NCBI RefSeq assembly: GCF_000255295.1
Contig: NC_017030.1
Location: 5,208,001-5,272,000 of the forward strand
Length of the DNA stretch: 64,000 nt
DNA from: Corallococcus coralloides DSM 2259
GTDB lineage: Bacteria > Myxococcota > Myxococcia > Myxococcales > Myxococcaceae
Direction of reading: 5' to 3'
Position 1 is the first letter of the stretch. Every line of letters starts with the position of its first letter. Made by a program: the position numbers and the translations under genes. The notes under the pieces were generated by a model. The model had not been told where the DNA came from. It was given only the letters and a program-made list of their open reading frames with translations, and did no database searches. Below, piece by piece: positions 27,501-64,000 of the stretch.

Positions 27501-30500
27501 CGTAGCGTTTCCGCGTGGCCCAGGCGCTGGGCTTCGGCCTGCTTCGCGGCGCGGCTGCCCAGACCCCTCAGGTCCGCCAGCTCCAGGGGGACGTGGCCCT
27601 CCGGGTGGATGTCCTGCACGGGCTTGCCCACCTCCATGCGGAAGGTGGTCCGCAGGGATTCATGCCGCGCCATCAGCGCGTCCAGGCTTGCGCGCAGTGC
27701 TTCCACGTCCAGGTCGCCAGTGAGGCTCAGCGCCAGCGGCATGTTGTAGAGCGGGCTGCCCGGCTCCAGCTGATCGACGAACCACAGCCGCTGCTGTGCG
27801 AAGGACAGCGGCGGCGCGGACGTCCGCTCGGCACGGACCAGCGGCGGCGCCTGGGTGCGGCGCGCGTTCACCAGCCGCTCCGCCAGCGAGGCCACCGTGG
27901 GCGCCCGGAACAGCTCGCCCAGCGGCAGCTCCACGCCCAGGGTCGACCGGATGCGCGACACCACCTGCGTGGCCAGCAGCGAGTGCCCACCCAGTTCGAA
28001 GAAGTCGCCGTGGATGTCCACGGTGTCCAGGTGCAGGACCTCCGCCCAGATGCCCGCGAGCGCCTTCTCCAACTCGCTCCGAGGCGCGGAGGTGGCGCTG
28101 TCCGTGCCACGGGCCTGGGGCGCCGGCAGGGCCTTGCGGTCCACCTTGCCGTTGGCGCTCAGGGGCAGCTTGGGCAGCGCCACGATGGCGGATGGCACCA
28201 TGTAGTCCGGCAGCTGCTTCTGCACGGACGCCCGCAGCGCTGCCGTGTCCAGGCCTTCGCTCACGACGTAGGCGACCAGGCGCTTGTCGCCCGGCACATC
28301 CTCGCGCACCACGACCACCGCCTCCTCGACCTCCGGCGACTGGCGCAGCACGGCTTCGATTTCGCCCGGCTCCACGCGGAAGCCGCGCAGCTTCACCTGG
28401 AAGTCGGTGCGGCCCAGGAACTCCAACGTCCCGTCGCGCTGCCAGCGCACGCGGTCGCCCGTGTCGTAGAGACGCGCTCCGGGTTCGGTGGCGAAGGGGT
28501 GGGGGATGAAGCGTTCGGCGGTGAGGTCCGGGCGCTGGAGGTAGCCCCAGGCCAGACCGTCTCCGCCCACATACAGCGTTCCCGGCACGCCCGGCGGCAC
28601 GGGCTGGAGCGAAGCGTCCAGCACCCACGCCGTGGAGTTCGACAGCGGCCGGCCGATGGGCACCGAGCGGCCCACGGTGTCTCCAGCGCGCAGCGTGTGC
28701 GTGGCGGAGAACGTGGTGTTCTCCGTGGGGCCGTAGCCGTTGACCAGCACCGCGCCCGGGGGCAGCCGCTTCAGGTGTTCCCGCACGCGCTCCACGGGCA
28801 GCACGTCGCCGCCCGCGAGCACCTGCTTCACCCGGGCCAGTGCGTCACCCTGGTGCAGGACCATCTGCTCGAAGAGGGCGGCGGTGAGCCACAGCGTGGT
28901 GATGCCTTCGCGCCGCAGCAGCGCTCCCGTCTCCTCCAGCGACAGGGCCTTGGGCGGCGCCAGCACCAGCGTCGCGCCGTTCAGCAACGCGCCCCAGATT
29001 TCCAGGGTGGACGCGTCGAACGCGATGGGGGCCAGCTGGAGGAAGACCTCCTCGGGTCCGAAGTGGATGAAGTCCGCTCCGCGCACCAGACGCGTGATGC
29101 CCCGGTGCGGGACGCTCACGCCCTTGGGGCGTCCGGTGCTGCCCGACGTGAACATCACGTAGGCCAGCGCTTCGGCGGAGACATTCAGGTCCAGTGGCGT
29201 CTCCGGCTGGCGCGCGATCTGGGCTTCATCCGCATCCAGCAGGACCTGGAGGTCCGTTACCTGGGGCAGCTCATCCGCCAGGGCCTCCTGCGTGACGAGC
29301 ACGCTCACGCTGGCCGCCTGGAGCATCCAGGTGATGCGCTCCGCGGGCGTCTTCGCGTCCACCGGCACGTAGGCCGCGCCGGCCTTGAGGATGCCCAGCA
29401 GACCGGTGACGAGGTCGAACGACCGCTCCACGCACAGGCCCACCCGGTGGCCGGGCCGCACGCCCTGGCGCCGCAGGTGGTGCGCGAGCTGGTTCGACGC
29501 GCGCTCCAGCGCCGCGTACGTGAGCGTCTCCCCGCCGGACTTCAGCGCGATGGCGTCCGGCGTGCGCGAGGCCTGTTCCGCGAAGAGGGCGCCCACGGAC
29601 GCGTCGCGCGGGTAGTCCCGGGCGGTGTCATTCCACCCGATGAGCAATCGCCGCCGCTCGGCGTCCGTGAGCCAGGGCAGCTGTCCCAGCCGCGTGTCCG
29701 GCGCCCGGACGGCGGCCTCCAGCAGCACGCGGAGGTGCTCCGCCATGCCGGCCGCGGTGGCCGGTTCGAACAGGTCCTGATTGAAGACGAGCCCGCCGTC
29801 GAAGCCGTCCGGCGTGCGCATCATCAGCCACTGGAGGTCGAAGAGGATGACGTCCGGGGTGGACTCCAGCGGGCGCAGCGTCAGCCCCGGCAGGGACAGC
29901 TCCGGCAGGGGTGCGTTCTGCAGCGTGAAGGTCACCTGGAACAGCGGCGTGCGGCCCAGGTCTCGCTCCGGATGGAGCACCTCCACCAGCTTCTCGAACG
30001 GCAGGTCCTGGTGCTCGTACGCGCCCAGCGTGGTGGCGCGCACCTGCTCCAGCAGCTCACGGAAGCGGAGCGTGTCGCGGACCCGCGTGCGCAGCACCAC
30101 CGTGTTCGCGAAGTAGCCGATGAGGTCCTCGGACTCCGCGTGGCGGCGGCCCGCGATGGGCGACCCCACGAGCACGTCCTCCTGGCCCGCGTACCGGTGC
30201 AGCAGCAGCTGGAAGGCCGCGAGCAACACCATGAAGGGCGTGGTGTGGGTCTGCTTCGCCAGTGACTCCAGCGCCTCGCTCAGCTCGCGCGGCAGGGTCA
30301 TGGGCTGCACGCCGGCCCGGAAGGACTGGCGTGCCGGACGCGGGTGGTCCGTGGGCAGCTCCAGGTAGGGCGCGGCGCCTTCCAGCTGCCCGCGCCAGTA
30401 CGCCACCTGCGACTCCAGCACGTCGCCCTGGAGCCAGTCGCGCTGCCAGAGGGCGTGGTCGGCGGCCTGCACCGGCAGCTCCGGCAGCGGCGAGGACTCC

Positions 30501-33500
30501 TCCGCGGAGAACGCCGTGTAGAGCGCGCCCATCTCCCGCACCAGCACGCCCGTGGACCAGCCGTCGGAGATGATGTGGTGCGTGTTGAGCAGCAGCCGGT
30601 GCTTCGTGGGCCCCAGCTTCATCAGGAGTCCCCGGAACAGCGGGCCCTGCTCCAGGTCGAACGGGGTGCGGGCCTCTTCCAGCGCCAGCCGCGACGCCTC
30701 CGCCTCGCGCGCCTCCGCCGTGGGCAGCGCGGACAGATCCACGTTCCTCAGGGGCATGGGGAAGGGTGGATGGATGACCTGCGACGGCGTGCCTTCGTGC
30801 GAACGGAAGGTCGTGCGCAGCGCTTCGTGGCGGCGCACCAGCTCGTCAAACGCGGCCAGCATCACGATGATGTCCAGCGTGCCTTCCAGCTCCAGCATGC
30901 TCGGGAGGCTGTAGGCGTTGCCCACCGTGCCCAGCTGCTCGATGAACCAGAGCCGCTGCTGCGCGAACGACAGGGGCAGCACGTCCGGCCGCTCCACGCG
31001 GGTCAGCGAGGGCAGGGCGGAGGCGGGGGCTTCCTGGGACTCGGACGCGGGCTGCCGGAGGGCGTCGATGCGCTCGGCCAGCGCCGCGACCGTGGGTCCT
31101 TCCAGCAGGGCGCGCAGGGGCAGCTCCACGCCGAAGTGCTTGCGCACGCGCGACACCAGCTGCGTGGCCAGCAGCGAGTGGCCGCCCAGCTCGAAAAAGC
31201 CGTCGTGGCGTCCCACGGCGGGGACGCGCAGCACTTCGATCCACAGCGGGATCAGCGCTGCCTCCGTGGGAGTCGCGGGCGGTTCGATGACGCGCTCCGT
31301 GGCGGGCGCGGCGGCCGGTGCCGGCAGCGCCTTGCGGTCCACCTTGCCATTGGGCGTCAGCGGCAGGACGTCCAGCGTGATGAACACCGCGGGCACCATG
31401 TACTCCGGCAGGTGACGGAGCAGGTGCTCGCGCAGGGGCGACGTGTCCACCGGGGGCGCGACGTACGCCACCAGCCGGTCGTCGTGCACCTGCGCCACCG
31501 CGTCCCGGATGCCCGGGTGCGCGCGCAGCGTGGCTTCGATTTCGCCCAGCTCGATGCGGTTGCCGCGCAGCTTCACCTGGAAGTCCAGGCGGCCCATGAA
31601 GTCGAGCGTGCCGTCCTCGCGCCAGCGGGCCTTGTCGCCCGTGCGGTACATGCGTGCGCCGGGCTCCGTGCTGAAGGGATCCGGCAGGAAGCGCTCGGCC
31701 GTGAGCGCGGGCTGACCCAGGTAGCCTCGCGTGACGCCTTCACCAGAGAGGCACAGCTCGCCCGGCGTTCCGATGGGTGCCAGACGCAGGTTCGCGTCGA
31801 GCACGTAGGCGCGCAGGTTGGTGATCGGCCGGCCGATCACGGGCAACGGCTGGGTCGCGCCCTGGACGGCGATGGTCGTCGCGTCCACGGTGACCTCCGT
31901 GGGGCCGTAGCCGTTGTAGGCGCGTGCGTGCTTCGCCGCGGCGAGCTGCCGCCACGTCACCTCGTCCATCGCCTCGCCGCCGATGGAGAACCGGACGGGG
32001 CCATGGGCGCGCTCCAGCATTCCCGCGGACAGCAGGAGCTTGATCTGCGACGGCGTGCCGTCCAGCAGGTGGATGCGCTGACGCTCCATCCAATCGAGCA
32101 TGGCCTCCGGATCCAGGCGCACGTCCTCCGGGACGATGACCAGGCAGTGGCCGTCCAGCAGCTGGATCACCTGTTCGATGGCGGCGTCGAAGTACAGCGG
32201 CGCGTTCACGGTGATGCGCTGTGCGGGCGCCAGCTCCTCGTAGATGCTCCGCGTCATCGCCAGGTGCAGGTGGATCACCGAGCGGTGCTGCACCATCACG
32301 CCCTTGGGCGCGCCCGTGGAGCCGGACGTGTAGATGACATAGGCGAGGTTCGCCGGACCCGCCGCTGGCGGCAGGTTGTCCGAAAACCTGTCCGACTGTC
32401 CGACAGGTTTTTCGTCCAGCCGCACCAGGTGGGGCACCTCCGGGTGCCACGCTTCTTGCAGTGCCTGCGTCGTCACCAGCACGCTCGCGCCACTGTCTTT
32501 GAGCACGAACGACTTGCGCGCGGCCGGAGCCTTGGGGTCCAGCGGCACGAAGGCGCCGCCTGCCTTGAGCACCGCCAGCAGTGCCACGATGGCCTCCGCC
32601 GACCGCTCCAGGCACAGGCCGACCGTGACTTCTGGGCCCACGCCCAGCGACCGCAGGTGCCAGGCGAGCTGGTTGGCCCGCGCGTTGAGCTGCTGGAAGG
32701 ACAGCGTCGTTTCCTCGAACACCAGGGCGTCCGCGTCCGGCGTCGCGGCGGCCTGTCGTTCGAAGCGCGCGTGCACGGTGGTGTCGCGCTCGAAGTCCAC
32801 GACGTCGCCGGTGCCGGTGCGCAGCAGCCAGGCTCGGTCCTCGGCCGGGAGGAGGGACACGTCCGCCAGCCGCGCCCCGGGCTGGATGAGGGATTCGAGC
32901 GCCTGGCTCCACTGGCCCAGCACGCGCTGCACGGCGTCCGCGTCGAAACGGTTCTCGTCGTAGGCCAGGTGCAGCTGGAGCTCACGGCCCGGGTACACCG
33001 TGGCCGACAGCGGGTAGTTCGTGCTCTCGCCGATGACAAAGTCGCGCAGATCCAGCGCGGTGGAGCGGCGCAGCACCGATTCATCGAGGGGGACGTTTTC
33101 GAAGACGAGCAGCGACTGGAAGAGCGGCAGGCCTCGGGGGATGTCGCTCCAGCCGTGCGCGGCGACCAGCGGCGTGTGCTGGTGCTGCTGGATGTCCAAC
33201 AGCTTCGCCTGGAGGGACTGGAGCCACGCCAGCACGGACGCGTCCTCGTCGGGGATCGCGACGCGGACTGGCAGCGTGCTGATGAGCAGGCCCAGCATCG
33301 CCTCCGAGCCCGCGAGCTCCGGCGGCCGGCCCGCGAACGTGGTGCCGAAGAGCACATCGCGCGTGTCCGCATGGCGTGCCAGCACCAGGGCCCAGGCCGC
33401 CTGCGTCAGCGTGTTGACCGTGAGCCGGTGCTGCCGGGCGAAGCCTTCCAGCGCCGTGGTGCGATCCTCCGGAAGCGTCAGCACTAGGTTGGGCTGATTC

Positions 33501-36500
33501 ACCGTGCCGTCGGGGTGCGCGGACGAAGGACGCATGGCCGGCAGGGGTGTGGGCGATGACAGGCCTCCCAGCTGGCCGCGCCAGAAGCGTTCGTCCTCGG
33601 CGACGTCGCGCTGGCCCAGCCACGCGATGTAGTCGCGGAACGGCGGACGCCCGGCGGCGGGCAGCGGTGTCCCGGCGGTCAGCGCGTCGTAGATGGCGAA
33701 GACCTCCTGGAAGAACAGGCCCAGGCTCCAGCCGTCGAACAGCAGGTGATGGTGGCTCCAGACGAAGCGCCACCGCGCGTCTCCCAGCCGCACCGCCGTC
33801 ATGCGCGACAGGGGCGCACGCGACACGTCGAAGCCGCGCGCGCGGTCCTCCGCGTACAACTGCTCCAGCAGGGCCTGCTGCTCCAGCTCCGGCAGGTGGC
33901 GCCAGTCATGCGCTTCGAACGGCAGCACCGCGCGTGAATGCACCGCCTGCAGCGGCGCCTCCAGGTCCTTCCACACGAAGGCCGTGCGCAGGATGGGGTT
34001 GCGGTCCACCGCCGTCTGCCACGTCCGCTGGAACAGCGCGAGGTCCACATCCGAGTGGACCGACCACGCGGTCTGCTCGAAGTAGAAGCCCGCCTCCGGA
34101 TCATTCAGCGCGTGGAAGAGCATGCCCTCCTGGAGCGCGGAGAGCGGGAACAGGTCCTCCACCGTGGGGCCCTGTGCCGCGAGCACCGCGTCCAGCGAGG
34201 CCTGGGTCAGGCGCGCCAGCGGGAAGTCGCTCGGCGTCCGCCTGCGCGCGTCCTCCGAGTGGCGCAGGGCGATGAGCTCGCGCAGTGCGCGCGTGAACCC
34301 CTGGGCCAGGGCTTCGATGGTGGCGGCGTGATGCCACTCATGGCTGAAGCCGAAGTCCATCCGCAGCTGTCCGTCCACGACGAAGCCGCCGACGGACAGC
34401 GCGTACGCGTGAAGGGCCTTGGGCGACACCGCCATGCTGGTGGGCTCGGTGCCCGGGGCGAAGAGGGTGCTGGCGCCGATGGAACCGTCTCGCTGGCTCA
34501 GGCCGTTGAAGAGCACCTGCGCGGATGGCAGGGTCGCGAGCCGCTGCCGGAGCTCCGCGGGCCCCATGAACCTCAAGAGGCCGTAGCCGATGCCGCGGTC
34601 GGGCCACGCGGACAGCGAATCGCGCACCGCTCGCAGGCAGTCTCCGGCCGAGCCACCCTCTGGCAACTGGAGCAGGGCCGGCGCCAGCGATGTGAACGCC
34701 CCCACGGTGCGGGACACGTCCGCGTCCGCGAAGAGCGCCTCGCGACCATGGCCCTCCAGGTCGATGAGCAGGCGCGACTGGCCCGTCCATTCGCGCAGGG
34801 CCAGGGCCAGGGCCGTCAGCAGGATGTCGTTGATCCGCGCCCGCCAGGCCTCCGGCGTCTCTTCGAGCAGCAGCCGGGTCTGCTCCGCTTCCAGCCGCAC
34901 GGACATGGTGCGGTGCGAACCCTCGGTGCCGGGCCCGGAGCCATCGGTGGGCAACGGGGCCACGTTCCTGCGGGCCTCGTCGAGCCAGAGGGCCGTCTGC
35001 GCATGCAGGGCGTCGGACAGGGCGTGGGCCTCCAGCCTGCGGGCCCAGGCCAGGAAGGAGGTCGTCTTCGCGGGAAGCGCGGGGGACTGGCCCGTGCGCA
35101 GCCTCAGGTAGGTGGTCTCCAGGTCCTCGACGAGCACACGCAAGGACACGCCGTCCACCACCAGGTGGTGGAGGATCAGCAACAGGCGCTGCTCCTGTCC
35201 GGCGCCGAAGTGGAAGAGCGCGGCGCGCAGCAGGGGCGGCCGGGACAGGTCGAACGAGGCCTGGAGGCGCTCGGCCTCCTCCTCCAGCCGTGCCGAGCGC
35301 ATGTCCTCGGGCAGTTCGGACAGGTCAATCTGGAGCAGGGAGACCCGGGCCTCGTCGGGCGCGGCGTTCTGCTGGCGCCAGGCGCCGCCGTCCTCGCGCA
35401 CGAAGCGCATGCGCAGGGCGTCGTGGTGGACCACCAGGGTCTGGAGCGCCTCTTCCACCCATGCCGCCTTCAACGGCTGGCGCACCTGGAGCAGCAGCAC
35501 CTGGTTGAAGTGATGGGCGTGAGTGGGGTCGCGCTCCAGCAGTTGGCGCTGGATGGGCGTGAGCGGCACCTCGCCCACCACCGGTCCCTGTTCCGCGAGG
35601 CGGACCCCGCTGACGCGAGCCACGGAGGCCAGGGCCGCCAGCGTCGGGTGTTGGAACAGATCGCGGACGGACAGCTGGATGCCGGCCTGCCGGGCCCTGG
35701 CGACGGCCTGGATGCTGATGATGGAGTCGCCGCCCAGCTCGAAGAAGTTGTCATCGAGCCCCACGCGTTCGACGCGCAGCACCTGGGCCAGGACCTCTGA
35801 AAGCGTCCGCTCCGTTGCCGTGCGGGGCGCGGCGTACTCCCGCGTCGCGGCGCGCTGGACCTCCGGCGTGGGCAGGGCCTTGCGATCCACCTTGCCGCTG
35901 GACGTCAGCGGCAGCGCCGGCAACGGGATGAAGATCGCGGGCACCATGTACTCCGGCAGCCGCCGCGACAAGAGGGTCCGCAGCGAGGCCAGCTCCAGGT
36001 CCGCGCCCGAGACGACATAGGCGACCAGGCGCCGCACACCGGGCGCGTCCTCGCGCACCACGGCCACGGCTTCCCGGACGTCCGGATGGGTGAGCAGCGC
36101 GGCTTCGATGTCGCCCAGCTCGATGCGGAAGCCTCGCAGCTTCACCTGGAAGTCGGCGCGGCCCAGGTACTCCAGCGTGCCGTCCGTGCGCCACCGGGCG
36201 ATGTCGCCCGTGCGGTACAGGCGCGCACCGGGCGTGTCGCTGAAGGCGTCGGGGATGAATCGCTCGGCGGTGAGGGCAGGGCGGCGCCAGTAGCCCCGGC
36301 CCACCTGCACGCCACCGATGAACAGCTCGCCCGGGATGCCTACGGGCACGGGCTGACCGTGGGCATCCAGGACGTGCATGCGCGTGTTGGCAACGGGCCT
36401 GCCGATGGGCACGACTCGCAGGGCTTCGTCGCGCGGGCACTCCCAGGACGTCACGTCCACGGCGGCCTCGGTGGGGCCGTAGAGGTTGTGCAGCGTGGTG

Positions 36501-39500
36501 TGCGGCAGGCGCGCCTGGGCACGGAGCACCAGGTCCGCGGGCAGGGCTTCGCCGCTGCACATCAGCTGGCGCAGGCGCGGCAGGGACTCCAGGCCGGGCT
36601 CCTCCACGAAGGCGCGCAGCATGGACGGCACGAAGTGCGTGGTCGTCACGCCCTCGCGCGCCATCAGGGCCACCAGGTAGTCCGGCTCCTGATGTCCGCC
36701 GGGCCGCGCGAGCACCAGCCTCGCGCCCGTCATCAGGGGCCAGAAGAACTCCCAGACGGACACGTCGAAGCTGAACGGCGTCTTCTGAAGCACCGTGTCC
36801 GACGGCGTCAGGCCGTAGCGCCCCTGCATCCAGCGCAGGCGGTTGACGACGCCCGCGTGCGCGTTCATCGCGCCCTTGGGACGGCCCGTGCTGCCCGACG
36901 TGAAGATGACGTAGGCGAGCGAATCCTCACCGGCAAGCGGCCGAGACCGGACGGTAGGCTCGCGCGCGATGGCCTCCCACTGGGTGTCGAGCGCAATGAC
37001 ATGCGCAGTCCGGGGAGGCACCGCGGCGCGGAAGCGCTCCTGCACGAGGAGCACGGGCGCGCCGGTGTCCTCCAACATCCCGGCGAGCCGTTCCGCGGGC
37101 GTGGCCGGATCCAGCGGGACGTAAGCCGCGCCGGACTTCAGGACGCCCAGCAGGGCGACCACCATCTCCAGCGAGCGCTCCATGCAGACGCCCACCAGGG
37201 TCTCCGGACCCGCGCCGTGCGCACGCAGGTGGTGCGCGAGCTGGTTGGCCCGGGCTTCGAGCTGCGCGTACGTGAGGCGCTGGTCCTCGAACTGGATCGC
37301 GAAGGCGTCCGGCGTGCGTTCGGCCTGGGACTCGAAGAGGTGGTGGAGCGTGGCACCAGGGGGGAAGTCCACGTGCGTGTCGTTCCAGCCGCGCAGCACC
37401 TGTTCGCGTGCGGCCGGCGTGAGCAGCGACAGCTTCGCGAGCGGTGCTTCCGGCGCCGCGATGATCTCCCTCGCGAGCACCACCAGGTGCTCCGCCATGC
37501 GCTCGACGGTGGCCGCGTCGAAGAGGGCGGTGGCGTACTCCAGATGGCAGGCGATGCCCGTGCGGCTCTCCAGCACCTCCAGGGACAGGTCGAACTTGGC
37601 CGTGTCGGTGGGGACCTCCACCTGACTCAGCGCCAGCGACGGCAGCTGGCCCTTTGCCTCCGGCGTGTTGATCACGTTGAGGACGGCCTGGAAGACCGGC
37701 GTGCGGCTCAGGTCACGGGGGAGCTCGAGTGTCTCCAGGACCCGCTCGAACGGAGCGTCCTGGCGCGCGTAGGCCTCCAGGGCCTGCGTGCGCACGCGGC
37801 CCAGCAGCTCCACGAAGGACGGCTGGCCAGACAGCTTCGAACGGAAGGGCAGGGTGTTGATGAAGCAGCCCAGCAGCCACTCCACCTCCGGGCGCGTGCG
37901 GCCCGCGATGGGCGTGCCCACCACGAAGTCGTCCTGCCCCGAGTAGCGCGACAGCAGCGTCTGGAAGAGCGCCATCATCACCATGAACGACGTGGCGCCG
38001 TTGCGGCGGCCCAGCGCCAGCAGCGGCGCGGACACGTCGGCGGGGAACGCGAAGCGGTACCGCGCGCCCTCGAAGGACTGGAGGGCGGGACGCGGCCGGT
38101 CCGTGGGCAGCTCCAGCACGGGCGCTCCGGCCAGCTGCTGCTTCCACCAGCCGAGCTGCGCCTCCATCACGCCGCCTTCCAGCCAGGCGCGCTGCCACAC
38201 GGCGTAGTCCGCGTACTGCACCGGCAGCTCCGTCAGGGGCGACGGCTGGCCCGAGTGGAACGCGGCGTAGTTCGCCGTCAGCTCGTGCGCGACGACCATG
38301 TTGCACCACGCGTCGGACACGGCGTGGTGGAAGACGATCGCCAGCACGTGCACCTGGGGATCCAGGCGCAGCAGCGTCGCGCGCAACACGGACTGCTCCA
38401 GGTCGAAGGGCAACAGCGCGTAGGCCCTGCAGAAGCGCTGCATCTCCGCTTCGCGGGCCTCCGGCGTGTCGCCCTCCACGTCGCGGCGCGGGAGCGGCAG
38501 GCCGCGCGGCGGGTGGATCTTCTGCACCGCGCGGTCGCCCTCCAGGGCGTACGTGGTGCGCAGCACTTCATGCCGCGCCACCAGCGCATCCAGCGCGGCC
38601 TGGAGCGCGTCCACATCCAGCTCCCCGACGAGGCGGAAGAGCGACGGGTTGTTGTACGCGCCGCTGCCGGGCTCCAACTGCTGGAGGTACCAGAGGCGCT
38701 GCTGCGCGAAGGACAGGGGCAGCGGCCGGTCGCGGCCCACGCGCGGAATGGGCGGCGGGCCCTCGTTCACGACCGGAGCGGCAGGACGCGCGGCGACGGG
38801 CGCCACGGTGGGACGCGGCGCTTCCATGACGGCGGGACGCGCCACGGGCGGAGGGGGGAGGCGGGACGGTGACGCCACGGGCTCCACGCGGCCATCCGCG
38901 CGCAACCGGGCATGGCGGCCGGTGCGGTACAGCCGCGCCGCGGCCTCTCGGGGGTGCGGCACCAGGCGGCGGTCGTCGTCGCTCGCGCGCCACAGCGCAG
39001 TCGGGAGCCCCGCGCCCGCGAGGGCCAGTTCACCCACCACACCCGCGGGCACGGGCTGACCGGCCGCGTCCAGCACCCAGGCCTGGAGGTTCGCGGGGAT
39101 GCGTTCTCCCAGCGTGCGCGGCAGCAGCGCGCCTTCCTGGGCGTCACCGGACAGCCACACCTCCACGCCCGCGGCCCGGTGCAGCGCCGCGCCCAGCTCC
39201 ACCGACGCGCCTTCCAACACCAGCGCGCCCACGCGGGCCAGCGACTCGCGCGCGCCGGGCAGTTCGCTCAGCGAACGCGCCAGTCGGGCTGACGTGTGCA
39301 GCAGCACCGCGCCGGACTGGCGTGCCAGCTCCAGCAGGCCTTCCACGCCCGCCTCGGCCTCCACCAGCACCTGCTCCTGGCGGGCGGCGGCCTCCGCGTC
39401 CATGCGCTCGCGCACCACGGCCAGCCGGCGCAGGCCTTCCAGCACCACCGGGGTGTCCAGGCCGAAGTCGATGAGCGCCGCCACCTCGTCCACGTCCGCC

Positions 39501-42500
39501 GCGCGCACGTCGCGCAGCCGCTTCACGGCGCCGTCCACCGTTCCCACGAGTCCCGTCGTCTTGGCGTGGTTCTCGAAGGTGTGCTCCAGCAGCGCGTCGA
39601 TGTCCTCCGGGGACAGCTTCTGGATGTCGCCCTGGTAACCCTGGGTGAGCAGCAGCGACGTGAGGATGTCCACCGAGCTGCGGAAGTACGCGAGCAGCGG
39701 CTTGCGCACGAGGCGCAAGACCTCCTGGTCGTCGTCACCCAGGTACGTGTGCAGCATGCAGGTGATGTGGCCGCGGCCGGGGTGGCCGTTGCGGCGCCAC
39801 GCCTCGCGGTACAAGGCCACCTTCGGCTTCAGCTCCTCCAGCGAGTGCGACAGCAGGCCCGTGAGTACGCCCGCGCCCAGCTCGCCCGCCATGCGGAAGG
39901 TCTCCGGGTTGGACGTGGCGGTGAGCCACACCGGCAGCTCCTTCTGCACGGGCTTCGGCCGCAGGGCTCCTTCCACCATGGTGCCCGCGCCGCCGGGGCG
40001 CTTGAAGCGCTCGCCGCGCCACAGGGCGCGCAGCGTGGCCAGCTTCTCCAGGAGGATGTCGCGGCGCTTCTCGAAGTTGGCCGGCGCGAAGGTGAAGTCC
40101 TGCGTGTGCCAGCCCGTGGCCACGGAGAGCCCCACTCGGCCCTGCGACACGTTGTCCACCACGGACCACTGCTCCGCGATGATGAGCGGATCATGCAGCG
40201 GCAGCACCACGCTGCCGGAGCGCACGTGCAGGTGCTTCGTGACGGCCGCGACCGCGGCGGAGATCACCGCGGGCTGCGGGTACAAGCCACCGAACGAATG
40301 GAAGTGCCGCTCGGGCGTCCACACGGCGGAGAAGCCGTTCGCGTCCGCGAACTTCGCGCCCTCCATCAGCAGTTCGTACTTGGGTCCCTGGAGCGAGTCC
40401 TCGTCGTTGGCGAAGTAGATGAGGCTCAGGTCCATCGCCTTCGCGCGAGGCCCTCCGCCGCCCAGGCTCACCAGCCGTGCGGTGATGCGCTCCGGCGGGT
40501 ACACCACGCGCAGCCCGCGCGTGAGCGCCCACAGCGCTTCCAGCTCCGGACGTTCCGCGGAGGCCTCGCTCGCGGACAGCCACGCGCCGCCATCCGGCGG
40601 GGACAGCCGCGCGTCCAGGCCGGTGAAGAACTCCGACAGCTCGCGGTGACCCAGCGCCCAGGCGGGCTGACCGGAGCCCGTGGGCAGCAGCCACGCCAGC
40701 GCGTGCGCGTCCACTCCTGCGCGGAGGGGAACACCTGACGCGTCCACGTCCTCCACGTACACGACGCGCGAAGCCTCCACGCGCACGGACGCCACCAGCG
40801 CGCGCGTGGTGACCAGCACCGGCACGCGGGTGCCTTCCGGCGCGTACACGGGCAACTGCGTCAGGTCCGCCGGGCCCAGTGCGATGCCCGCGCCACCGGC
40901 GGCCAGCACGCCCCACAGCGCGGCCAGCTTCTCCGGCGACGAGCGCAGGCACACGGCCACCGGCGTCCCGGCCGTCACGCCCAGGGACTTCAGCCTCGCG
41001 GCCAGGGCATCCGCCCGGGCGCCCAGCTCGGCCCAGGTCCAGTGCGCATCCCCGCGCGAGACAGCGGTTGTGTCCGCGTGGCGTGCGCGCCGCTCCGCCA
41101 GCAGGGCCGGCACGGAGGTGAAGCCCGGCGAGGCACGGGGGGCGGGCCAGGCGCGGCGCTCGGCCTCCGTGATCAGCGGCAGCTGCGCGACAGGCGTCTC
41201 AGGCCGGGCGAGCGCCGCGCCGAGCAACACCTGGAAGTGCTCCATCAGCCGCTCCACGGTGGCGGCGTCGAACAGCTCCGTCGCGTACTCCAGGACGCCG
41301 TGGACGCGGCCGGGAGCTTCGGAGAGCAGGAGCGTGAGGTCCGCCAGCGTGGCGCCCCACTGCACGGGCGTGCCCGGCACCTCCACCAGCGAACCGCGCA
41401 GGCCCGTCAGGTTCAGCGTCCCTGCGCCCGCGGCCGCACCCGTGTGGTAGACGAACACGGAGTCCGTCAGTCGTCCGCGGCCGATGTCATGGCCCGGGAT
41501 GAGGGCTTCCACCAGGTACTCGAAGGGCACGTCCGGACGCGTCTGCGCGTCGGCGACCTCGTCACGCACCTGGGCCAGCAGCTCGCGGAACGTGAGGCCG
41601 TCCGTGAAGCGCGTCCGGAACGCCGCCGAGTGCGCCACGTAACCGATGAGCGGCAGCAGCTCCGGCCGCGTGCGGTTGGCGATGGGCGTTCCAACGATGA
41701 CGTCCGTCTGACCGCTGTAGCGGTGCAGCAGCGTCTGCCACGCGGCGAGCACCGTCATGTAGCCGGTGAAGCCCTCGCGGCGCGCGAAGGCCACCAGTTC
41801 GTGGGCGAGCGTGGGTGGGAACTCGACCGTCATGCGCTCGGAGGTGAGCGGGCTTGCGGTGGGGCGCGGCCGGTCGGTGGGCAGGTCCAGCTTGCGCGGC
41901 ATGCCGGCCAGCCGCTGCCGCCAACCCTGGTCCTGTTCGGGCAGGTGGCCGCCCGCGATGCTGTGGCGCTGCCACGCGCCGAAGTCCGCGTACTGTACGG
42001 GCAGCGGGGGCAGGGGGGACGGACGCCCCTGGAGGAAGGCGTCGTAGAGCTGGCCCAGCTCATGGACGAACAGCGTGATGGACAGCGTGTCGCTGACGAT
42101 GTGGTGGATGCCGCACAGGAGCAGGTGCAGCCGCGTGTCCACACGCACGAGCGTGGTGCGCAGCACGGGGCCGTGGACCAGGTCGTACGGTTCCGCGGCG
42201 TCCTCGCGGGCGAGCCGCAGGGCCTCGGGCTCGCGGTCCTCCATGGGGCCGCTCAGCTCCACGCGGGTGAGCGGGACGCGCATGTGCGCGTGGAAGCGCT
42301 GCACGGGGCGGCCGTCCACGGCGTCGTAGGTCGTGCGCAGCGCTTCGTGGCGCTGGACGATCTCCTGGATGCCGCGCTCCATCACGTCCGCGTTCAGGTC
42401 GCCTTCGAGCCGCAGGACGAACGGGATGTTGTACGCGGACTGACCGGGCAGGTGCTGCTCCAGGCGCCAGACGCGCTCCTGCACGAAGGACAGCGGCAGC

Positions 42501-45500
42501 TCGCCGGTGCGTGCGAGCGGCACCAGCGGGAGCTCCGCGGAGACGGCGGCCTGCGGCGCCTGATGCAGCAGGGGCACCAGGCGCTCCGCGATGCCCGCGA
42601 CGGTGGGGGCTTCGAAGAGGGCCGCGAGCGGCAGGTTCACGCCGAACGCATCGCGCACCTGGTTGAGCAGCTGCGCGGCCGTCAGTGAGTTGCCGCCAAT
42701 CTCCAGGAAGTCGTCATGGCGGCCCACGAACTCCAGGCCCAGGCGCGCGCGCCACAGCGCGGCCACGCGTTCCTCCACCTCACCACGCGGGGCATCGTCA
42801 CGCGCGGGCTGCGAGGGCGCGGAAGGAGCCTCGGGGGATGCTTCGAGGATGGCCGATGCCACGACCGGAGCAGGACGTGCGACTTCGCTCGCGATCGAAG
42901 CGGGGAGGGCAGCGGCCTCCACGGCCTTCACGGTGACGCGGCCTTGCGCCTTCTGCTCCACCCAGACGGTCTTCTCCTGGAAGACGTACGTGGGCAGGTG
43001 CAGCCGCAGGCGCTGCTCGTGCGCGTAGAACGCGCTCCAGTCCACGGGGACGCCCGCGGTCCACAGCTCGCCCACGGTCTGGAGCCACCCCATCTGCTCC
43101 GTGGTCTTCCCTCCCAACCGCAGCGACGGCAGGCCTCGGACGCGAGGCGCGCCGCTCTCCACCCCCATCAGGTTCGCGCGCACCAGCGGCGTCACGTCCT
43201 GACCGGGGCCCACCTCCAGCAGCACCGCGCAGCCTTCCTCCTGCAGCGTCTCCACCGCGCGGGTGAAGTGCACGGGCTTGCGCATCTGCTCGGTCCAGTA
43301 GCGCGGGTCCGCCAGCTGCCCGGGCTGTGCCACCATCCCCGTGAGGCTGGACACGTAGCGCACCGCCGGCTCCGACCGGCGCAGCGTGCCCACCACGCGC
43401 GCCAGCTCCGGCATCAACGGCTCCACATCCACCGAGTGGAACGCGTGCGGCGCGGGCATGCGCACCGCTCCGGCCTTCTGGGCCTTCAGCTGGGCCTCCA
43501 GCCGCTCCACGTCCTCCACCGGGCCGGACACCACGCAGCGGTCCGGCGTGTTCACCGCCGCCAGCTCCAGCCGGCCCGACAGCAGCGGCTGGACTCGATC
43601 CACGGGCAGCGCCACCGCGAGCATCGCTCCCGGCGGCATGCGGTGCATCAGCTCACCGCGCGCCACCGTGAGGCGCATCGCGTCTTCCAGGGACAGCACG
43701 CCCGCGACACACGCCGCCGCGTACTCGCCGAAGCTGTGCCCCAGCACCGCGTACGGCGTCACGCCCAGGTCCTGCCACAGCCGCGCCAGCGACACCTGGA
43801 CGCTGAACAGCGCGGGTAGCGCCACGCGCGTGTCCGCCAAAGCCGCCGTGGCCTCCGCCTCCGCACCGGCCTGGGGCGACAGCAGCCAAGACACGCGCTC
43901 CCGCAGCGGCGCCTCCAACAACGCGAGGCACGCGTCCAGGTGCGCGCGGAACCGGGGCGACGCCTCCGCCAGCTCGCGCCCCATCGCGACCCGCTGCGCT
44001 CCCTGGCCGGAGAACACGAACGCCACCCGGGGCGCGCGCTTCTCGGTCTTCACCGCGACCACCGGCTTGCGCAGCTGCCACACCAGGTCCGCCGCGTCCT
44101 TCACCACCAGCGCGTGGCGGTACTCGAACGCCTTGCGGCCCACGGCGTGCGTGAACGCCAGGTCCGCCAGCGCCTGCGCATCCACGTCCTCCGCCATGTG
44201 CGCATCGAGCTGCCGCGCCGCCGCCTGCAACGCCTCCAGCGAACGCGCGGACAGCAGGACGAGCTGATGGGACCGCGAGGTGGCACCACTCCGCCGCAGG
44301 GGGGCCTCCTCGAGGACCGCGTGCGCGTTGGTGCCGCCAATGCCGAAGGAGCTGACCGCGGCGAAGCGGGGCGTCTCCCCCCGAGGCCACGGCCTCAGGG
44401 TGGTGTTGACGAAGAACGGCCCCGCGTCGAAGTCGATCTGCGGGTTGGGCTTCTCGAAGTGGAGGCTGGGGGGAATCTCCCCGTGGTGCAGCGACAGCGC
44501 GGCCTTCATCAGGCCCGCCAGGCCCGCGACCGTGTCCAGGTGGCCCACGTTCGTCTTCAGCGACGCCAGCGCGATGCTTCCCCGGTGCTCCGCGCCCAGG
44601 CCGTACGCGCGCGTGAGGGCCGCCACTTCAATCGGGTCCCCCAGCGGCGTCGCGGTGCCGTGGGTCTCCACGTAGCCCACGGCCTCCGGTGCCACGCCCG
44701 CGTTGGCCAGTGCCTGGGATACCACCGCCGCCTGTCCCTGAACGCTGGGCGCGGTGAAGCCGGACTTGTTCCGCCCGTCGTTGTTCAGCGCCGAGCCTCG
44801 GATGACGGCGTAGATGGCGTCCCCATCCCGCACCGCGTCCTCCAGACGCTTGAGCACCACCGAGCCCACGCCGTTGCCGGACAGCGTGCCTCCCGCCTTC
44901 GCGTCGAACGCGCGGCAGTGGCCGTCCGGGGAGAAGATGAGCCCCTCCTCGTGCACGTAGCCCGTGCGCTGCGGCAGCGACAGCCGCATCGCGCCCGCGA
45001 GCGCCACGTCGGACTGGCCCGTCCGCAGGCTCTGTGCTGCCAGGTGCACGGCCACCAGACCCGTGGAGCACGCGGTGTAGAGCAGCACGCTTTCGCCCGT
45101 GAGCCCCAGCTTGAAGGACGCCTTCGTCGCCAGGCTCTCGTGCGTGGCGGTGCCGTGCAGCTCCATGTACGACGCCGCGTCCAGCGGCATCGCCTGCCGG
45201 ACCGCGTCCGTGTACCCGGAGCCCGTGGCGCCCGCGTACAGCGAGATGGCGCCGGGGAAGCGGTCCGGGTCGATGCCCGCGTCCTCCAGCGCGGCCCACG
45301 CGGTCTGGAGGAAGAGCCGCTGCTGCGGATCCGTGAACTGCGCCTCGCGCAGCGACATGTCGAAGAACGCGTGGTCGAACCGGTCCGCGCCGTCGATGAC
45401 GCCCGCGGCCGGGACGAAGGCCGGCTGGTGCCACAGCTCCAGCCCCTCCGGCAGGAGGGACAGGTGCTCCAGCTCCTCCGGTGAGAAGCGCGTGATGGAC

Positions 45501-48500
45501 TCCACGCCTCCGCGCAGGTTGCGCCAGAACTCCGCCACCGTCATCGCGCCGGGGAAGCGGCCCGCCATGCCGATGATGGCGATGGAGCCGGACGCGCCCG
45601 CCTTCGGTGCCTCGCGCGGCCGGTGACCGGGCGCTTGAGACACGGGCGGCGGTGCGGTGCCCGGTCCCTGCGACTCACGCTCCAGCCGCTGGACGAACCC
45701 TTCGAGCGTGGGGTGTTCGAACAGCCACACCACGGGCACCTCGCGCTGGAGCTCCTCGCGCAGGCGCGCGGCCAGCCGAACCACGCTCAGCGACGTGGCG
45801 CCCAGGTCCTCGAAGAATTGGTCCTGCGCGCTCACGCGGTCCGTGCCCAGCTCGCGGGCGAAGACGGGCGCCAGGCGCTGCTCCAGCGGGTGCGTGGGCT
45901 CCACGAAGCGGCCCTGCCGTCCGGTGGACGCGGCGTCCGGCGCGGGCAGCGCCTTGCGGTCCACCTTGCCGCTGGGGTTCAGGGGCAGGGTGTCCAGCAT
46001 CACGAACACCGACGGCACCATGTACTCCGGCAGCCGCTGCCGCAGCGCCGCTCGCAGCGCCGAGGCCTCCAGCACGTGCCCCGGCCCAGGCATCGCGTAG
46101 GCCACGAGCCGCTTGTCCCCGGGCACGTCCTCGCGCACCACCACCGCGGCGTCCTGCACCGCGGTCAGGTCGCGCAGGGCGGCCTCCACCTCCGCCAGCT
46201 CGATGCGGAAGCCGCGCACCTTCACCTGCGTGTCGATGCGGCCCAGGAACTCCAGCGTCCCGTCCGCACGCCAGCGGCCCATGTCGCCCGTGCGGTACAG
46301 CCGTGCGCCCGGCGTCGTGCCGTAGGCATCCGGGACGAAGCGCTCCGCCGTGAGGTCCGGCCGCGACACGTAGCCCCGGCCCACGCCGTCACCGCCGAGG
46401 AACAGTTCACCCGGCACGCCCACGGGCACCGGGTTCAGCCGCGCGTCCAGCACGTACACGGACGTGTTGGCGAGCGGCGCGCCGATGGACACCGACGTGC
46501 CCACCTGGTCCGGCCGCTCCGCCGTGAAGGTGGTGGCGACAATGGAGCACTCGGAGGGGCCGTAGCCGTTCGTGAAGGGAATGCCCAGCGACTCCACCGC
46601 CCGGCGCACATGCGGCGCGGAGACGATGTCGCCGCCCGCGTGCAGTTCGCGCAGCCGCCCGAGGATGTCTGGCCGGTGCTCCATCAACTGCGAGAAGAGA
46701 CCGGAGGGCAGGTGGATGAAGGTGACGCCGTGGCGCTCCACCACTCGGGCCAGCGTGTCCATGTCGCCCGCGGGCACGTGGCCCGGGAAGACAACGAGCC
46801 GGCTGCCATGCACCAGCGGCATCCACAGCTCCAGCACGGAGCCGTCGAAGGACACGGGCGCGAAGAGCAGCACCGTGTCGCGCGTCCCGTAGTGCAGGTA
46901 TGGCGCCGCATGCAGCACGCGCAGCAGGCCGCGATGCTCGACGCCCACGCCCTTGGGCCGTCCGCCGCTGCCGGAGGTGAAGATGACGTAGGCGAGGTTG
47001 CGCGGCCCCACGCCGGTCTGTGGCGCGGTGACAGGCTCGCCGGCCAGCGACAGCTCCTCCAGGAACAGGCACGGCAGGGACTCGTCGGGCAGGTGCAGCC
47101 GGCCGCGCAGCTCTCGCGTGGTGACGAGCAGGTGCGGTCGCGCATCCTCCAGCATGAAGCTCAGCCGCTGCGCGGGATACGACGCATCCAGCGGCACGTA
47201 CGCGCCACCGGCCTTGACGATGCCGAGCACCGTGACGACGAAGCCCACGGAGCGCTCCAGGCACAGCGCCACCCGCACGTCCGGTCCCACGCCCCGGGCC
47301 CGCAGGACATGCGCGAGCTGGTTGGCCCGCGCATCCAGCTGCGCATACGTCAGCTGTTCATCCCCGTCCTCCACCGCGATGGCGTCCGGACGCAGCGAGG
47401 CCTGCAACGCGAAGCGCTCCGCGAGCGTGCCGTCGGAGGGATAGGGAAGGGCGGTGTCATTCCACGCTACGAGCACCTGCTGGCGCTCCTCCGGCGTGAG
47501 CCACGGCAGCCGTGAGAGGGGCACGTCCGGCCCGGCGACGGCGGCCTCCAGCAGCACGCGCAGGTGGCCAGCGAGCCGGGCCACGGTGTCGCGTTCGAAG
47601 AGGTCGGTGCTGTACTCGATGGAGCCGCGCAGTCCATCCGGCGTCTCCGTGAGCAGCAGGCTCAGGTCGAAGTGCGCCGTGCCCGCGTCCACCTCCAGCG
47701 GCTCCATCCGCAGCCCCGGCGCATCGAACGCCTCGGCCGGCGCGTTCTGGAGCGCGAAGACCGCTTGCACCAGCGGCGTGCGGCCCAGGTCGCGAGGCAC
47801 CTGGAGCTCCTCCACCAGCTTCTCGAACGGGAGGTCCTGGTGCTCATAGGCCGCGAGCGTCGTGTCCCGCACCTGTCCCAGCAGCGTGCGGAAGGACGCC
47901 TCCGGATGGATGCGCGCGCGCAACACCAGTGTGTTGACGAAGAAGCCTACCAGCCCCTCCACGTCGCCGTGGGTGCGGCCCGCGATGGGGGCGCCGACGA
48001 GCAGGTCCTCCTGCCGGCTGTAGCGGGACAGCACCGCCTGCCACGCGGTCAGCAGGGCCATGAACGGCGTGGCGCCCTCGCGCCGGGCAAGCCCCGTCAG
48101 CCGATCCGTCAGGTCGCGAGGCACGTGCACGGGCATCAGCGCGCCGTGCGGGGAACGCGTCGTGGGCCGAGGCTTGTCAGTGGGCAGCTCCAGGACCCGG
48201 GGTGCACCGGCGAGCTGCTCCTTCCACCACGTCACTTCATCCGCGAGCACGTCACCCTGGAGCCAGCCACGCTGCCAGGCCGCGAAGTCGGCGTACTGCA
48301 CGGGCAGCTCCGGCAGCACCGGAGCCTTACCGGAAGCGAAGGCCGCGTAGGCCGTGGCCACCTCGCGCACCATCACGCCCAGGGACCAGCCGTCGGAGAC
48401 GACATGGTGCATGCCCAGGAGCAGCACGTGCTGCGTGGACGTCAGCCGCAGCAGGCGCGTGCGCAGCAGCGGTCCCGTGCCCAGGTCGAAGGGCCGGCCC

Positions 48501-51500
48501 GCCTCCTCGCGCGCCAGCCGCTGGACCGCCGATTCGGGGTCCGTCAGGTCGCCCAGGTCCGTCACGGGCAGCGCCCAGAGCGGCGTGGGGTGGATGTCCT
48601 GGACCGGGTCGCGGCCCTTCATCGCGAGCGTGGTGCGAAGCGCTTCGTGGCGCTCGACGAGGAACTCCAGCGCGCGGCGCAGGGCCTCCACGTCCAGTGC
48701 GCCGTCCAGCCGCACGGCCCCCAGCAGGACGTAGGGCGTGGCACCGGGTTGCAGCTGTTCCATCACCCACAGCCGCTGCTGCGCGAAGGACAGGACCTGT
48801 CCACCGTCGCGAGGCACCTTGCGGATCGCGGGCACGCGCGGGAGGTCCGTGCGCGAGAGGAGCTGGGCCTCCACCTGTTCGGTGACCTCGGCGACGGTGG
48901 CTCCGTCGAAGAGGCCGCGCAGGGGCAGCTCCACCTGGAACGTGGAGCGCACGCGGGACAAAAGCCGCGTGGCCAGCAGCGAGTGTCCACCCAGGGCGAA
49001 GAAGTCATCGTGCACGCTGACCTTCGGCACCCGCAGCACGTCGCGGAACAGGTCCGCGATCCGCTGCTGGAAGGGCGTCATCCGCTGGGGCTTCGAAGGC
49101 ACCACGGCGACCGCGTGCACGTCAGGAACAGGCAGGGCCTTGCGGTCCACCTTCCCGTTGGGGGACAGCGGCAGCGCGTCCAGCACCGCGAAGGCGGAGG
49201 GCACCATGTACTCCGGCAGCTTCGCCTTCAGCGCTTCGCGCAATGCCTCCGCCGTCACGCCCCGGCCCACCACGTAGGCCACCAGGCGCTTGTCGCCGGG
49301 CGCGTCCTCGCGCACCACCACTACGGTGTCGCGCACGCCTTCGCACTGGCGCAGCGCCGACTCCACTTCGCCCAATTCGATGCGGAAGCCGCGCAGCTTC
49401 ACCTGGAAGTCCAGGCGGCCCAGGTACTCGATGGTGCCGTCGGCGAGGACTCGGGCCCTGTCTCCCGTGCGGTAGAGCCTCGCGCCCGGCGGGCCGTACG
49501 GATCCGGGATGAACCGCTCCGCCGTCAGCGCGGGACGGCCCAGGTACCCCCGGCCCACCTGCACGCCGCCGATGTGGAGCTCTCCCGCGATGCCCACCGG
49601 CACCGGCTGCAACGCCGCATCCAGGATGTGGATCCGCGTGTTCGCCACCGGCCTGCCAATGGGCACCGAGCGCCGTCCGTCATGGCGCTCGCAGGTCCAG
49701 GCCGTCACGTCCACCGCGGCCTCCGTGGGGCCGTAGAGGTTGTAGAGGGGGACGCCCAGCCGATCCAGGCAGCGGTCCTTCAGCTCCAGCGGCAGCGCTT
49801 CACCGCTGCACACGACGCGGCGAAGCGCCGTGCAGCGCTCCAGCCCGGGCTCCTCCAGGAACACCTGGAGCATGGACGGCACGAAGTGCACCGTCGTGAT
49901 GCCTTCGCGCGCCATCACGTCCACCAGGTACGCGGCATCCTGGTGTCCACCCGGCCTCGCGACCACCAGCCGCGCGCCCGTCATCAGGGGCCAGAAGAAC
50001 TCCCAGACGGACACGTCGAAGCTGAACGGCGTCTTCTGCAACACGACGTCGCGAGGCTCCAACCTGTAGGCGTCCTGCATCCAGAGCAGCCGGTTGCGGA
50101 TGCCCGCGTGGGTGTTCATGGCGCCCTTCGGACGCCCCGTGCTGCCCGACGTGTAGATGACGTAGGCCAGGTGTTCGGCGCCCACGCCCGACTCCTCGGG
50201 CTCCGGCGACAGGCTCGCCACCTGGGGCCAGTCCGCATCCAGGCAGAGCACCGGCGTGCTTCCCACTGACAGCAACGGCCGCAGGTGCTGCTGCGTCAGC
50301 ACCACCGCGACCGCCGAGTCCTCCACCTGGTACGTCCGCCGCTCCGCCGGGGCGGAGGGATCGATGGGCACGTACGCGCCGCCCGCCTTGAGCACGCCGA
50401 GCAGCGCGATCACCAGCTCCAACGACCGCTCCGCGCAGACGCCCACGCGCACTTCCGGTCCCACGCCGCGCGCCCGCAGCGCACGGGCGAGCTGATTGGC
50501 CCGGCCGTCCAGCTCGCGGTACGTCAGCCGCGCGCCTTCGAAGTCCACCGCGATGGCATCTGGAGTCCGCGCCACCTGCGCTTCCACCAGCCCGTGCAGC
50601 GTGCCCTCCAGCGGGTAGTCGCGCTCGGTGGCATTCCAAGCCGCCAGCAGCCGCTGCTCCGCATCCCCCATCAGCGGCAGCAGATGCACGGGCGTCGCCG
50701 CATCGCGGGCCACGGCCTCCAGCAGCACCTGGAAGTGGGTGGCGAAGCGCGCCGCCGCGTCCTCGGAGAAGAGGTCCCGGCTGTATTCGAGCGTTCCCTC
50801 CAGGCCTCCGCCACTCGCGGTGAGTGAGAGGTGAAGGTCGAAGCGCGCGGTCTCCGTCGAGGTGTGCAGCCGCTCCACGCGGACGCCGGGCAGGGCCGGC
50901 GTGGACAGCGGTGCGTTCTGCAGCACGAACATCACCTGGAACAGCGAGGCACGGTCACCGCCGCGCGCCTGGGCCACGGCCTCCACGAGCCGTTCGTAGG
51001 GCACGTCCTGGTGCGCGTACGCGGCCAGGGACGACTCGCGCACGCGGTCCAGAAGCTCGGAGAAGCGGGGCGCTCCGTCCAGGCGGGCGCGCAGGACCAG
51101 CGTGTTGAGGAACACGCCGATGAGGGGCTCCAGCTCCGGCCGGGTGCGGTGGGCCACCGGTGTGCCCACCGCGAAGTCGTCCTGCCCGGAGTAGCGCGAC
51201 AGCACGGCCTGGTACCCGGCCATCAGCACCATGAACAGCGTGGCGTCCCGGTCGCGGCCTACCTGTTCCAGCGACCGAACCAGCGATGCGGGCAACGTGA
51301 AGACATGGCTGCCCCCACGCGTAGACCGGGCCCCGGGCTGTCCCTGCTCGGCGGGCAGGGTGAGCACGGGCACGTCCTTCAGGGACTCCTTGAGCGTGTC
51401 CAGTCGGGCGCGGGCCGTCTCGGAGTCCTCCTGCTCGCGTTGCCATGCGGCGAAGTCCGCGGCCTGCACCTCCAGCGCCGGGAGCGGCGACGGACGTCCC

Positions 51501-57793: not shown

Positions 57794-64000
<6,207 letters not shown>

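Follow-up and report, generated by a model that had tools for sequence, protein, structure and literature searches.

How can a monooxygenase work in a module of an assembly line that has no carrier of its own? This question is raised by gene A, a giant hybrid nonribosomal peptide synthetase/polyketide synthase (NRPS/PKS) gene of Corallococcus coralloides DSM 2259, which lies in the 64,000-nucleotide stretch of DNA analyzed here (the window; NC_017030.1, positions 5,208,001 to 5,272,000). Between two condensation domains, C1 and C2, gene A encodes a luciferase-like flavin monooxygenase (MOX) inserted into an adenylation (A) domain that has lost its active site (dA, for the dead A domain), with no carrier (T) domain behind it. 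An initial annotation had placed this unit at 38870-42510, and the interval does comprise C1 and the MOX-split A domain. The unit is not a peculiarity of this gene: it occurs three times in the genome and as 66 nonredundant units overall. Assembly-line logic is one carrier per module; here, a conserved module lacks one and seemingly uses that of its neighbor. We consider it probable that this is a carrier-less tailoring module, descended from a glycine-hydroxylating C-A[MOX]-T module, that oxidizes the alpha-CH2 of the beta-ketoacyl chain on the preceding acyl carrier protein (ACP).

An intact-looking monooxygenase in a dead adenylation domain

MOX units were collected from C. coralloides itself, from 64 loci in named genomes, from relatives sampled by hand, and from seven plasmid regions; the 146 obtained were reduced to 121 nonredundant units at 98.5% MOX identity. 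Carrier-less units number 66 and carrier-bearing units 41. Seven have no A half beside the MOX (one of them, L094, solely because its frame starts there), five are ended by the contig, and two are odd.

Motif reading finds A3, A4, and A5 each kept in 0 of the 66 carrier-less units, leaving none of them with a functional A active site. In the carrier-bearing units, the same motifs are kept in 41, 40, and 41 of 41, respectively. For gene A, the loss of A3, A4, A5, and A10 had been noted initially; this was an understatement, as the entire AMP-binding_C subdomain (A8-A10) is gone. The Pfam AMP-binding model matches only over about its first quarter, and the specificity-code positions fall inside destroyed motifs. 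Traces of what we take to be motifs A1, A2, A6, and A7 can still be read. Between the MOX and C2, a maximum-sensitivity search of all 66 units detected neither a T domain (best E 7.4) nor AMP-binding_C (best E 0.29) at E < 0.01, and no GGxS-type site occurs there. This search gave no cryptic T domain or A C-terminal subdomain in the unit and bears out the earlier statement that no carrier follows.

The MOX looks intact, as had been observed. It matches TIGR04020, the family of MupA/Atu3671 FMN-dependent luciferase-like monooxygenases, with 482 bits over positions 1-340 of the 341-position model (curated cut-off 244.45). An alignment of 43 carrier-bearing MOX domains has 104 columns with at least 95% conservation; gene A shows the same residue in 91 of them and a different one in 13. 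Its nearest solved relative is 6ket, PuwE (E 5e-95; Foldseek rank 1, target TM-score 0.80), and binding of flavin mononucleotide and monooxygenase activity are predicted. The insertion splits the A model at about position 213, between A4 and A5, in carrier-less and carrier-bearing classes alike. A structure predicted for the complete insert (mean pLDDT, a per-residue confidence score, 77) matches PuwE in its MOX part and A-domain cores in the remainder. Together, these results support the view of a dead A domain that has been kept to house the MOX.

The preceding module is a minimal PKS

Of the 66 carrier-less units, 59 follow KS-AT-T, and three are cut short on the upstream side, showing AT-T in two cases and T alone in one; nothing is visible before the remaining four. 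A carrier thus precedes C1 in 62 of the 62 units with a visible upstream side, and all 59 uncut modules are minimal, consisting of ketosynthase (KS), acyltransferase (AT), and ACP. The five further units that ended after the MOX likewise have KS-AT-T upstream (5/5). The KS domains before carrier-less units have the active-site motifs CST, E[AT]HGT, and KxNxGH (59/59), the ACPs have GGNSL (62/62), and the AT domains have HAFH, which we take to mark the malonyl type, in 57 of 61 cases, with the pattern not found in four. Reductive domains hidden in long AT-ACP gaps were considered and rejected, as the six gaps read contain linker only. AT-ACP linkers before the unit measure about 120 to 380 amino acids (aa) and consist partly of short tandem repeats (e.g., aa 2680-2959 of the frame of gene B, the tandem neighbor of gene A, and loci L126 and L020).

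With KS-AT-ACP lacking a reductive domain, the substrate at hand should therefore be a beta-ketoacyl-ACP that is still unreduced and has a free alpha-CH2. A KS-AT-ACP module that follows NRPS modules in Corallococcus is described as giving a dipeptidyl beta-keto acid (PMC10979478). The initial annotation held that the MOX acts on an intermediate borne by the preceding PKS carrier. The consistent co-occurrence with minimal KS-AT-ACP supports this proposal, and from it we infer the action itself.

Carrier-bearing units have a different setting. An upstream domain is visible in nine of 41, being A or acyl ligase (AL) followed by T in eight and a PKS module in one (L130, with 640 aa from AT to T). 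Their A domains look functional and have the code DILQ[LMV]GM[IV]W in 40 of 41 units and DMVQLGMVW in the other; we take codes of this type to specify glycine. The MOX domains of the myxothiazol, melithiazol, and some crz-like pathways are reported to lie inside glycine-recruiting A domains and to hydroxylate C-alpha (PMC11342130).

Alternatively, the MOX might oxidize whatever amino acid or peptide is bound to the T domain of the following C2-A-T module, with C1 and dA as passive spacers. That T domain is the closest carrier C-terminal of the MOX, and Ser-type codes are frequent in the downstream A domains, occurring in 21 of the 60 units in which the code after C2 was read (the code in gene A is also Ser-like, by our assignment). 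Yet downstream codes vary, with 18 different ones in these 60 units, whereas the upstream module is always a minimal PKS where visible and uncut. For related OX domains, moreover, the assigned site is the alpha position of a PKS-derived unit (PMC13252402). We therefore regard action on the following residue as improbable.

Codes before the KS were read in 36 units. The A domain that directly precedes the PKS module (window positions 46367-47404 and related loci) has the odd code DG(L/M)HH in 19 of these.

Carrier-less units form one clade under constraint

Carrier-less MOX domains form one clade (SH-aLRT branch support 100, 38 of 77 rows), as do the C1 domains (SH-aLRT 100, 28 of 76 rows) and the C2 domains (SH-aLRT 99, 25 of 76 rows) of the same units, in trees of subsets (77 MOX rows; 76 C rows, capped per group). 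Because carrier-bearing units are scattered across the rest of the MOX tree, a single loss is the simplest reading.

The search for C-dA-MOX units in other genomes recovered dozens in relatives. TIGR04020 matches above the cut-off, part of which were read, occur in at least 52 of the 117 genomes sampled from the order and in at least 50 of the 146 sampled from the phylum (the samples overlap). Carrier-less or cut units from named genomes number 63, under 22 two-word organism names, some of them "sp." Three of the loci read belong to members of the phylum outside the family: L155 and L168 are carrier-bearing, and L156 breaks off after its AMP-binding_C. The sample from outside Myxococcota is small, seven plasmid regions, and has only carrier-bearing or A-less MOX. 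Judged from these sequences, the layout is a conserved, recurring module of Myxococcaceae and relatives, apparently with one origin.

Two observations concern individual loci. Contigs labeled Comamonas sp. KCTC 72670 (L062 and L070) bear synthetase genes typical of Myxococcaceae, and the label is probably wrong. On a plasmid of Streptomyces sp. KN37 (L114), adjacent genes contain two MOX grammars: C-A[MOX]-A-T, and MOX-C after a KS gene.

Selection was gauged by the ratio of nonsynonymous to synonymous substitution rates (dN/dS; Nei-Gojobori script). Medians over 40 close pairs, a set that includes some same-species duplicates, were 0.04 for the ACP, 0.08 for MOX, 0.13 for C1, and 0.14 for C2. 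The N-terminal part of dA gave 0.25 and its C-terminal part 0.17, both below the AT-ACP linker (0.55); the tail came to 0.34. In 25 de-duplicated pairs, which are not fully independent and from which pairs with less than 75% identical downstream A cores were dropped, the active downstream A core gave 0.21, and neither part of dA departed from it significantly (N-terminal part 0.27, P = 0.21; C-terminal part 0.17, P = 0.06; Wilcoxon). Across the two sets, MOX lies at 0.08-0.09 and C1 at 0.13-0.16. Because the adenylation reaction is lost yet constraint is about that of a working A domain, dA is best explained as a structural mount.

These ratios also bear on plain decay, whereby C1, dA, and MOX would all be dead, skipped, and on their way out. 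The combined loss of the A active site, AMP-binding_C, and T is what decay would produce. Retention of the unit in 66 members of one clade, low dN/dS in MOX and C1 with dA comparable to an active A core, and the intact C1 motif described below all argue the other way, and we consider decay very unlikely.

C1 is a specialized condensation domain

The catalytic motif of ordinary condensation domains, HHxxxD, is kept in 63 of 63 C1 domains, and the residue following its Asp is Thr in all 63. This Thr belongs to a six-residue signature, which in gene A comprises T5135, N5272, V5285, H5287, R5340, and D5343. Relative to other C domains, G is replaced by N, F by V, and N by H in or before an "IGxFVNT"-like motif, and P by R and Q by D further on; C1 thus departs from ordinary C domains directly behind the Asp as well as at FVN, P, and Q. 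Among 435 distinct full-length C domains, T, N, V, H, and D each occur in 75 of 75 C1 domains and R in 73 of 75. The 360 others have T in 4, N in 54, V in 2, H in 7, R in 2, and D in 12. Only two of these others (mxp and L082) have three or more signature residues, and both are unlabeled C1 domains of carrier-less units.

Pairwise distances correlate at 0.97 between MOX and C1 and at 0.92 between MOX and C2 (63 units), although shared descent alone could yield the value of 0.97. Because its catalytic residues are intact and new residues have become invariant despite there being no acceptor carrier of its own, C1 is unlikely to be a relic and would instead be a specialized partner, probably acting together with the MOX. 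The initial annotation regarded the A domain as kept only to cradle the oxygenase. The housing role stands; the MOX and its mount are not all that was retained, since C1 is specialized and has an intact HHxxxD.

Proposed mechanism and its weak points

We propose that KS-AT-ACP would add a malonyl C2 unit to the peptide and, with no reductive domains present, a gamma-amino-beta-ketoacyl thioester would stay on the ACP. C1-dA-MOX would dock on this preceding ACP. The MOX, held in dA, would oxygenate the activated alpha-CH2 by alpha-hydroxylation, after which the chain may be oxidized further or shortened, and C2 would hand the product on to the next T domain. The end product would be either an alpha-hydroxy-beta-ketone or a shortened ketoamide. 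A precedent is offered by the OX domains beside an aminotransferase that are assigned to 3-amino-2-hydroxy units of cyanobacterial peptides (PMC13252402, preprint).

The proposed ancestor is C-A(Gly)[MOX]-T. Glycine on its T domain and a malonyl-derived C2 unit on an ACP would both present a CH2 beside the thioester. Once a PKS supplied that CH2, the A active site, the A C-terminal subdomain, and the T domain could have become dispensable, with the A core kept as a mount and C1 re-specialized. A switch from glycine to malonate would thus explain why the A domain is useless: the same enzyme meets a CH2 beside a thioester, from a new supplier.

Several points weigh against this reading. The ACP lies on the far side of C1 from the MOX, and the large Ser class downstream leaves room for action on the next residue. 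For descent from glycine-type modules, the upstream domain is not visible in 32 of 41 carrier-bearing units, and one of the visible ones, L130, itself follows a PKS module. Five of the 13 deviating MOX columns (F5691, R5770, H5878, L5936, and L5942 replaced) are altered in 71 of 71 carrier-less MOX domains; given these class-wide replacements, which would fit a changed substrate, the pocket may have changed. The trees were made by quick methods, without bootstrap or outgroup, and the direction of change is read from them indirectly. The first survey query contained the dA part together with two peptide patterns, favoring similar units. Finally, 40 longer regions were picked by hand, and the survey leans toward Myxococcaceae and relatives.

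A possible link to myxoprincomide

At an average gene density that we assume from general knowledge, the 136 genes from mxan_3643 to mxan_3779 would span ~168 kb. In a published paper, the first of these is named for myxochelin and the second for myxoprincomide. In an M. xanthus-like genome (G099), KS-AT-ACP-C1-dA[MOX]-C2 is encoded in a frame of 15,473 aa, at a distance of about 166 kb from the myxochelin gene mxcG; a second genome has a counterpart of 14,284 aa. If a region of 82.8 kb includes two 20-kb margins, as we assume from antiSMASH habit, 42.8 kb would remain, the size of such a gene. The myxoprincomide region is 82.8 kb long (PMC4902038). By position and size, a carrier-less unit therefore probably belongs to the myxoprincomide synthetase, MXAN_3779.

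Two points argue against this identity. The 15,473-aa frame has an acyl ligase start and 11 full A domains, roughly more than would fit the about 1010 Da given by the published myxoprincomide ion (m/z 506.27, 2+), and the same genome has two more carrier-less units in other genes (L121 and L122). A link based on composition was dropped, as several A codes of the M. xanthus-like gene were unreadable, and the passages of PMC11619377 give no domain order. If the identity holds, the genes in the window would join the myxoprincomide-type clusters, which have been reported across Myxococcia (PMC10435759, PMC12224551, PMC9684338). Gene A is likewise a giant hybrid NRPS/PKS gene near myxochelin genes, with mxcG about 236 kb from gene A and about 200 kb from gene B. 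The 15,473-aa gene differs from gene A in module order and codes.

Myxoprincomide contains 2-oxo-beta-leucine, which has one carbon fewer than Val plus C2. This suggests a stronger version of the proposed mechanism, not exclusive with it, in which the alpha-oxygenated beta-ketoacyl chain would lose one carbon to give an alpha-keto-beta-amino acid (ketoamide), with C1 aiding cleavage or transfer. The presence of the unit in the likely M. xanthus myxoprincomide synthetase is consistent with this, as is a C1 that retains HHxxxD and has gained fixed residues. However, the code before the PKS module in the M. xanthus-like gene, DGMHHVGIIK, differs from DALWLGGTFK, presumably a valine code, found elsewhere in that gene. 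The luciferase-like monooxygenases CalD and MndB are described as shortening chains (PMC8739492), and Baeyer-Villiger-type cleavage is proposed for a MOX domain in MndA, which is not termed luciferase-like there (PMC5698493). The closest OX relatives are nevertheless assigned as hydroxylases, and carbon loss is without sign in the present data. We hold carbon loss to be possible, if tentative. Bolder, and to us rather doubtful, is the idea that C1 represents a new catalytic condensation-like class that forms no peptide bond. Paired with the MOX on the ACP-bound beta-ketoacyl chain, it would jointly install an oxidized or one-carbon-shortened electrophilic unit (e.g., a ketoamide) in many unexplored myxobacterial peptides via the carrier-less module.

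Genomic context in C. coralloides

The 10.08-Mb genome is a single contig with three carrier-less units, in gene A, in its tandem neighbor gene B, and in a third giant gene. Features of the window are given in Table 1. Gene B contains the same C1-dA[MOX] unit, located further upstream. A frame or assembly artifact as the source of the unit is ruled out, since a single contig has three full copies and dozens more exist elsewhere. The genome also has a fourth TIGR04020 gene (gene4, G000:C1:3129085-3141438; L017 and L018), encoding KS-AT-T-aminotransferase-MOX-C, which resembles a puwainaphycin-type starter.

Genes A and B have patches that are more identical than their surroundings. Their first 1.8 kb share 97% identity, and the part of dA behind the MOX reaches 97-99% identity, against 82-87% in its flanks. 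This pattern looks like recent gene conversion.

Table 1. Features of gene A and gene B in the window (dA, dead A domain).
Feature	Position	Strand	Remarks
Gene A	20705..57490	minus	12,261 aa; AL-T-(C-A-T)x3-KS-AT-ACP-C1-dA[MOX]-C2-A-T-E-like C-(C-A-T)x4-TE
Gene B, 3' part	57794..64000	minus	11,854-aa frame leaving the window; tandem relative of gene A
KS of the preceding minimal PKS module	44453..45586	minus	Domain annotation
AT	43184..43987	minus	HAFH motif; domain annotation
ACP	42578..42769	minus	GGNSL; proposed carrier of the MOX substrate; AT-to-ACP stretch is linker only
C1, specialized condensation domain	41168..42490	minus	HHIVSDTLS; six-residue signature
dA, N-terminal part	40430..41167	minus	A3 and A4 destroyed
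MOX, luciferase-like flavin monooxygenase	39413..40429	minus	TIGR04020 / PF00296; sits between A4 and A5 positions
dA, C-terminal part of core	39002..39412 (about)	minus	A5 lost; AMP-binding_C subdomain absent
Pro/Ala-rich linker	38714..39001	minus	Place expected for AMP-binding_C and T; no phosphopantetheine site
C2	37418..38713	minus	HHAVSDAWC; proposed to move the oxidized chain off the PKS ACP and onto the following T
A, AMP-binding_C, and T of the next module	35627..37333	minus	A code DVWHMSLVDK

Significance and comparison with known systems

The titles, abstract beginnings, and passages covered in the literature search do not describe a carrier-less C-dA-MOX module; the 2012 myxoprincomide paper lies outside that scope and may show the layout. 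Nor did the search turn up a rule for the whole family, an origin from glycine modules, constraint on dA, or the C1 signature. Automated annotation would probably predict an amino acid that never gets loaded, or overlook the oxidation. The sequence signature allows such modules to be found and their products, oxidized or shortened C2 units, to be predicted. The module also suggests a concrete evolutionary route, the swap of a glycine unit for malonate under the same oxygenase, and may offer a compact cassette for engineering.

Three known systems are related. PuwE, of the puwainaphycin and tychonamide type (KS-AT-ACP-aminotransferase-OX), includes the closest solved MOX and, like the mechanism proposed here, has its OX assigned to a PKS-derived chain (PMC13252402). 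It differs in having no A domain around the OX and no C1, and its keto group is replaced by the aminotransferase. CalD and MndB of trans-AT PKSs belong to the same broad enzyme class (PMC8739492) and are proposed to hydroxylate, oxidize, or shorten carrier-bound chains (PMC8739492, PMC5698493). Their context is a trans-AT PKS, and the passages of these two papers do not mention housing in an A domain.

The third comprises MtaG/MelG and corallorazine-type C-A(Gly)[MOX]-A-T modules. MtaG and MelG were not recognized by name among our loci, and the contrast is drawn with the carrier-bearing units of that type. These share their MOX family with the carrier-less units, and those read here share the insertion point between A4 and A5, which carrier-less units retain. 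The difference noted initially is nevertheless real (PMC11342130): the 41 carrier-bearing units keep a working-looking A domain and a T domain, in line with the active A domain and own T of this type, compared with an intact A domain in 0 of 66 and an own T in 0 of 66 carrier-less units. The unit of gene A, with its dead A domain, no C-terminal subdomain, and no T, also departs from the MtaG/MelG type in the active-site signature of C1 and in its placement after a minimal PKS module.

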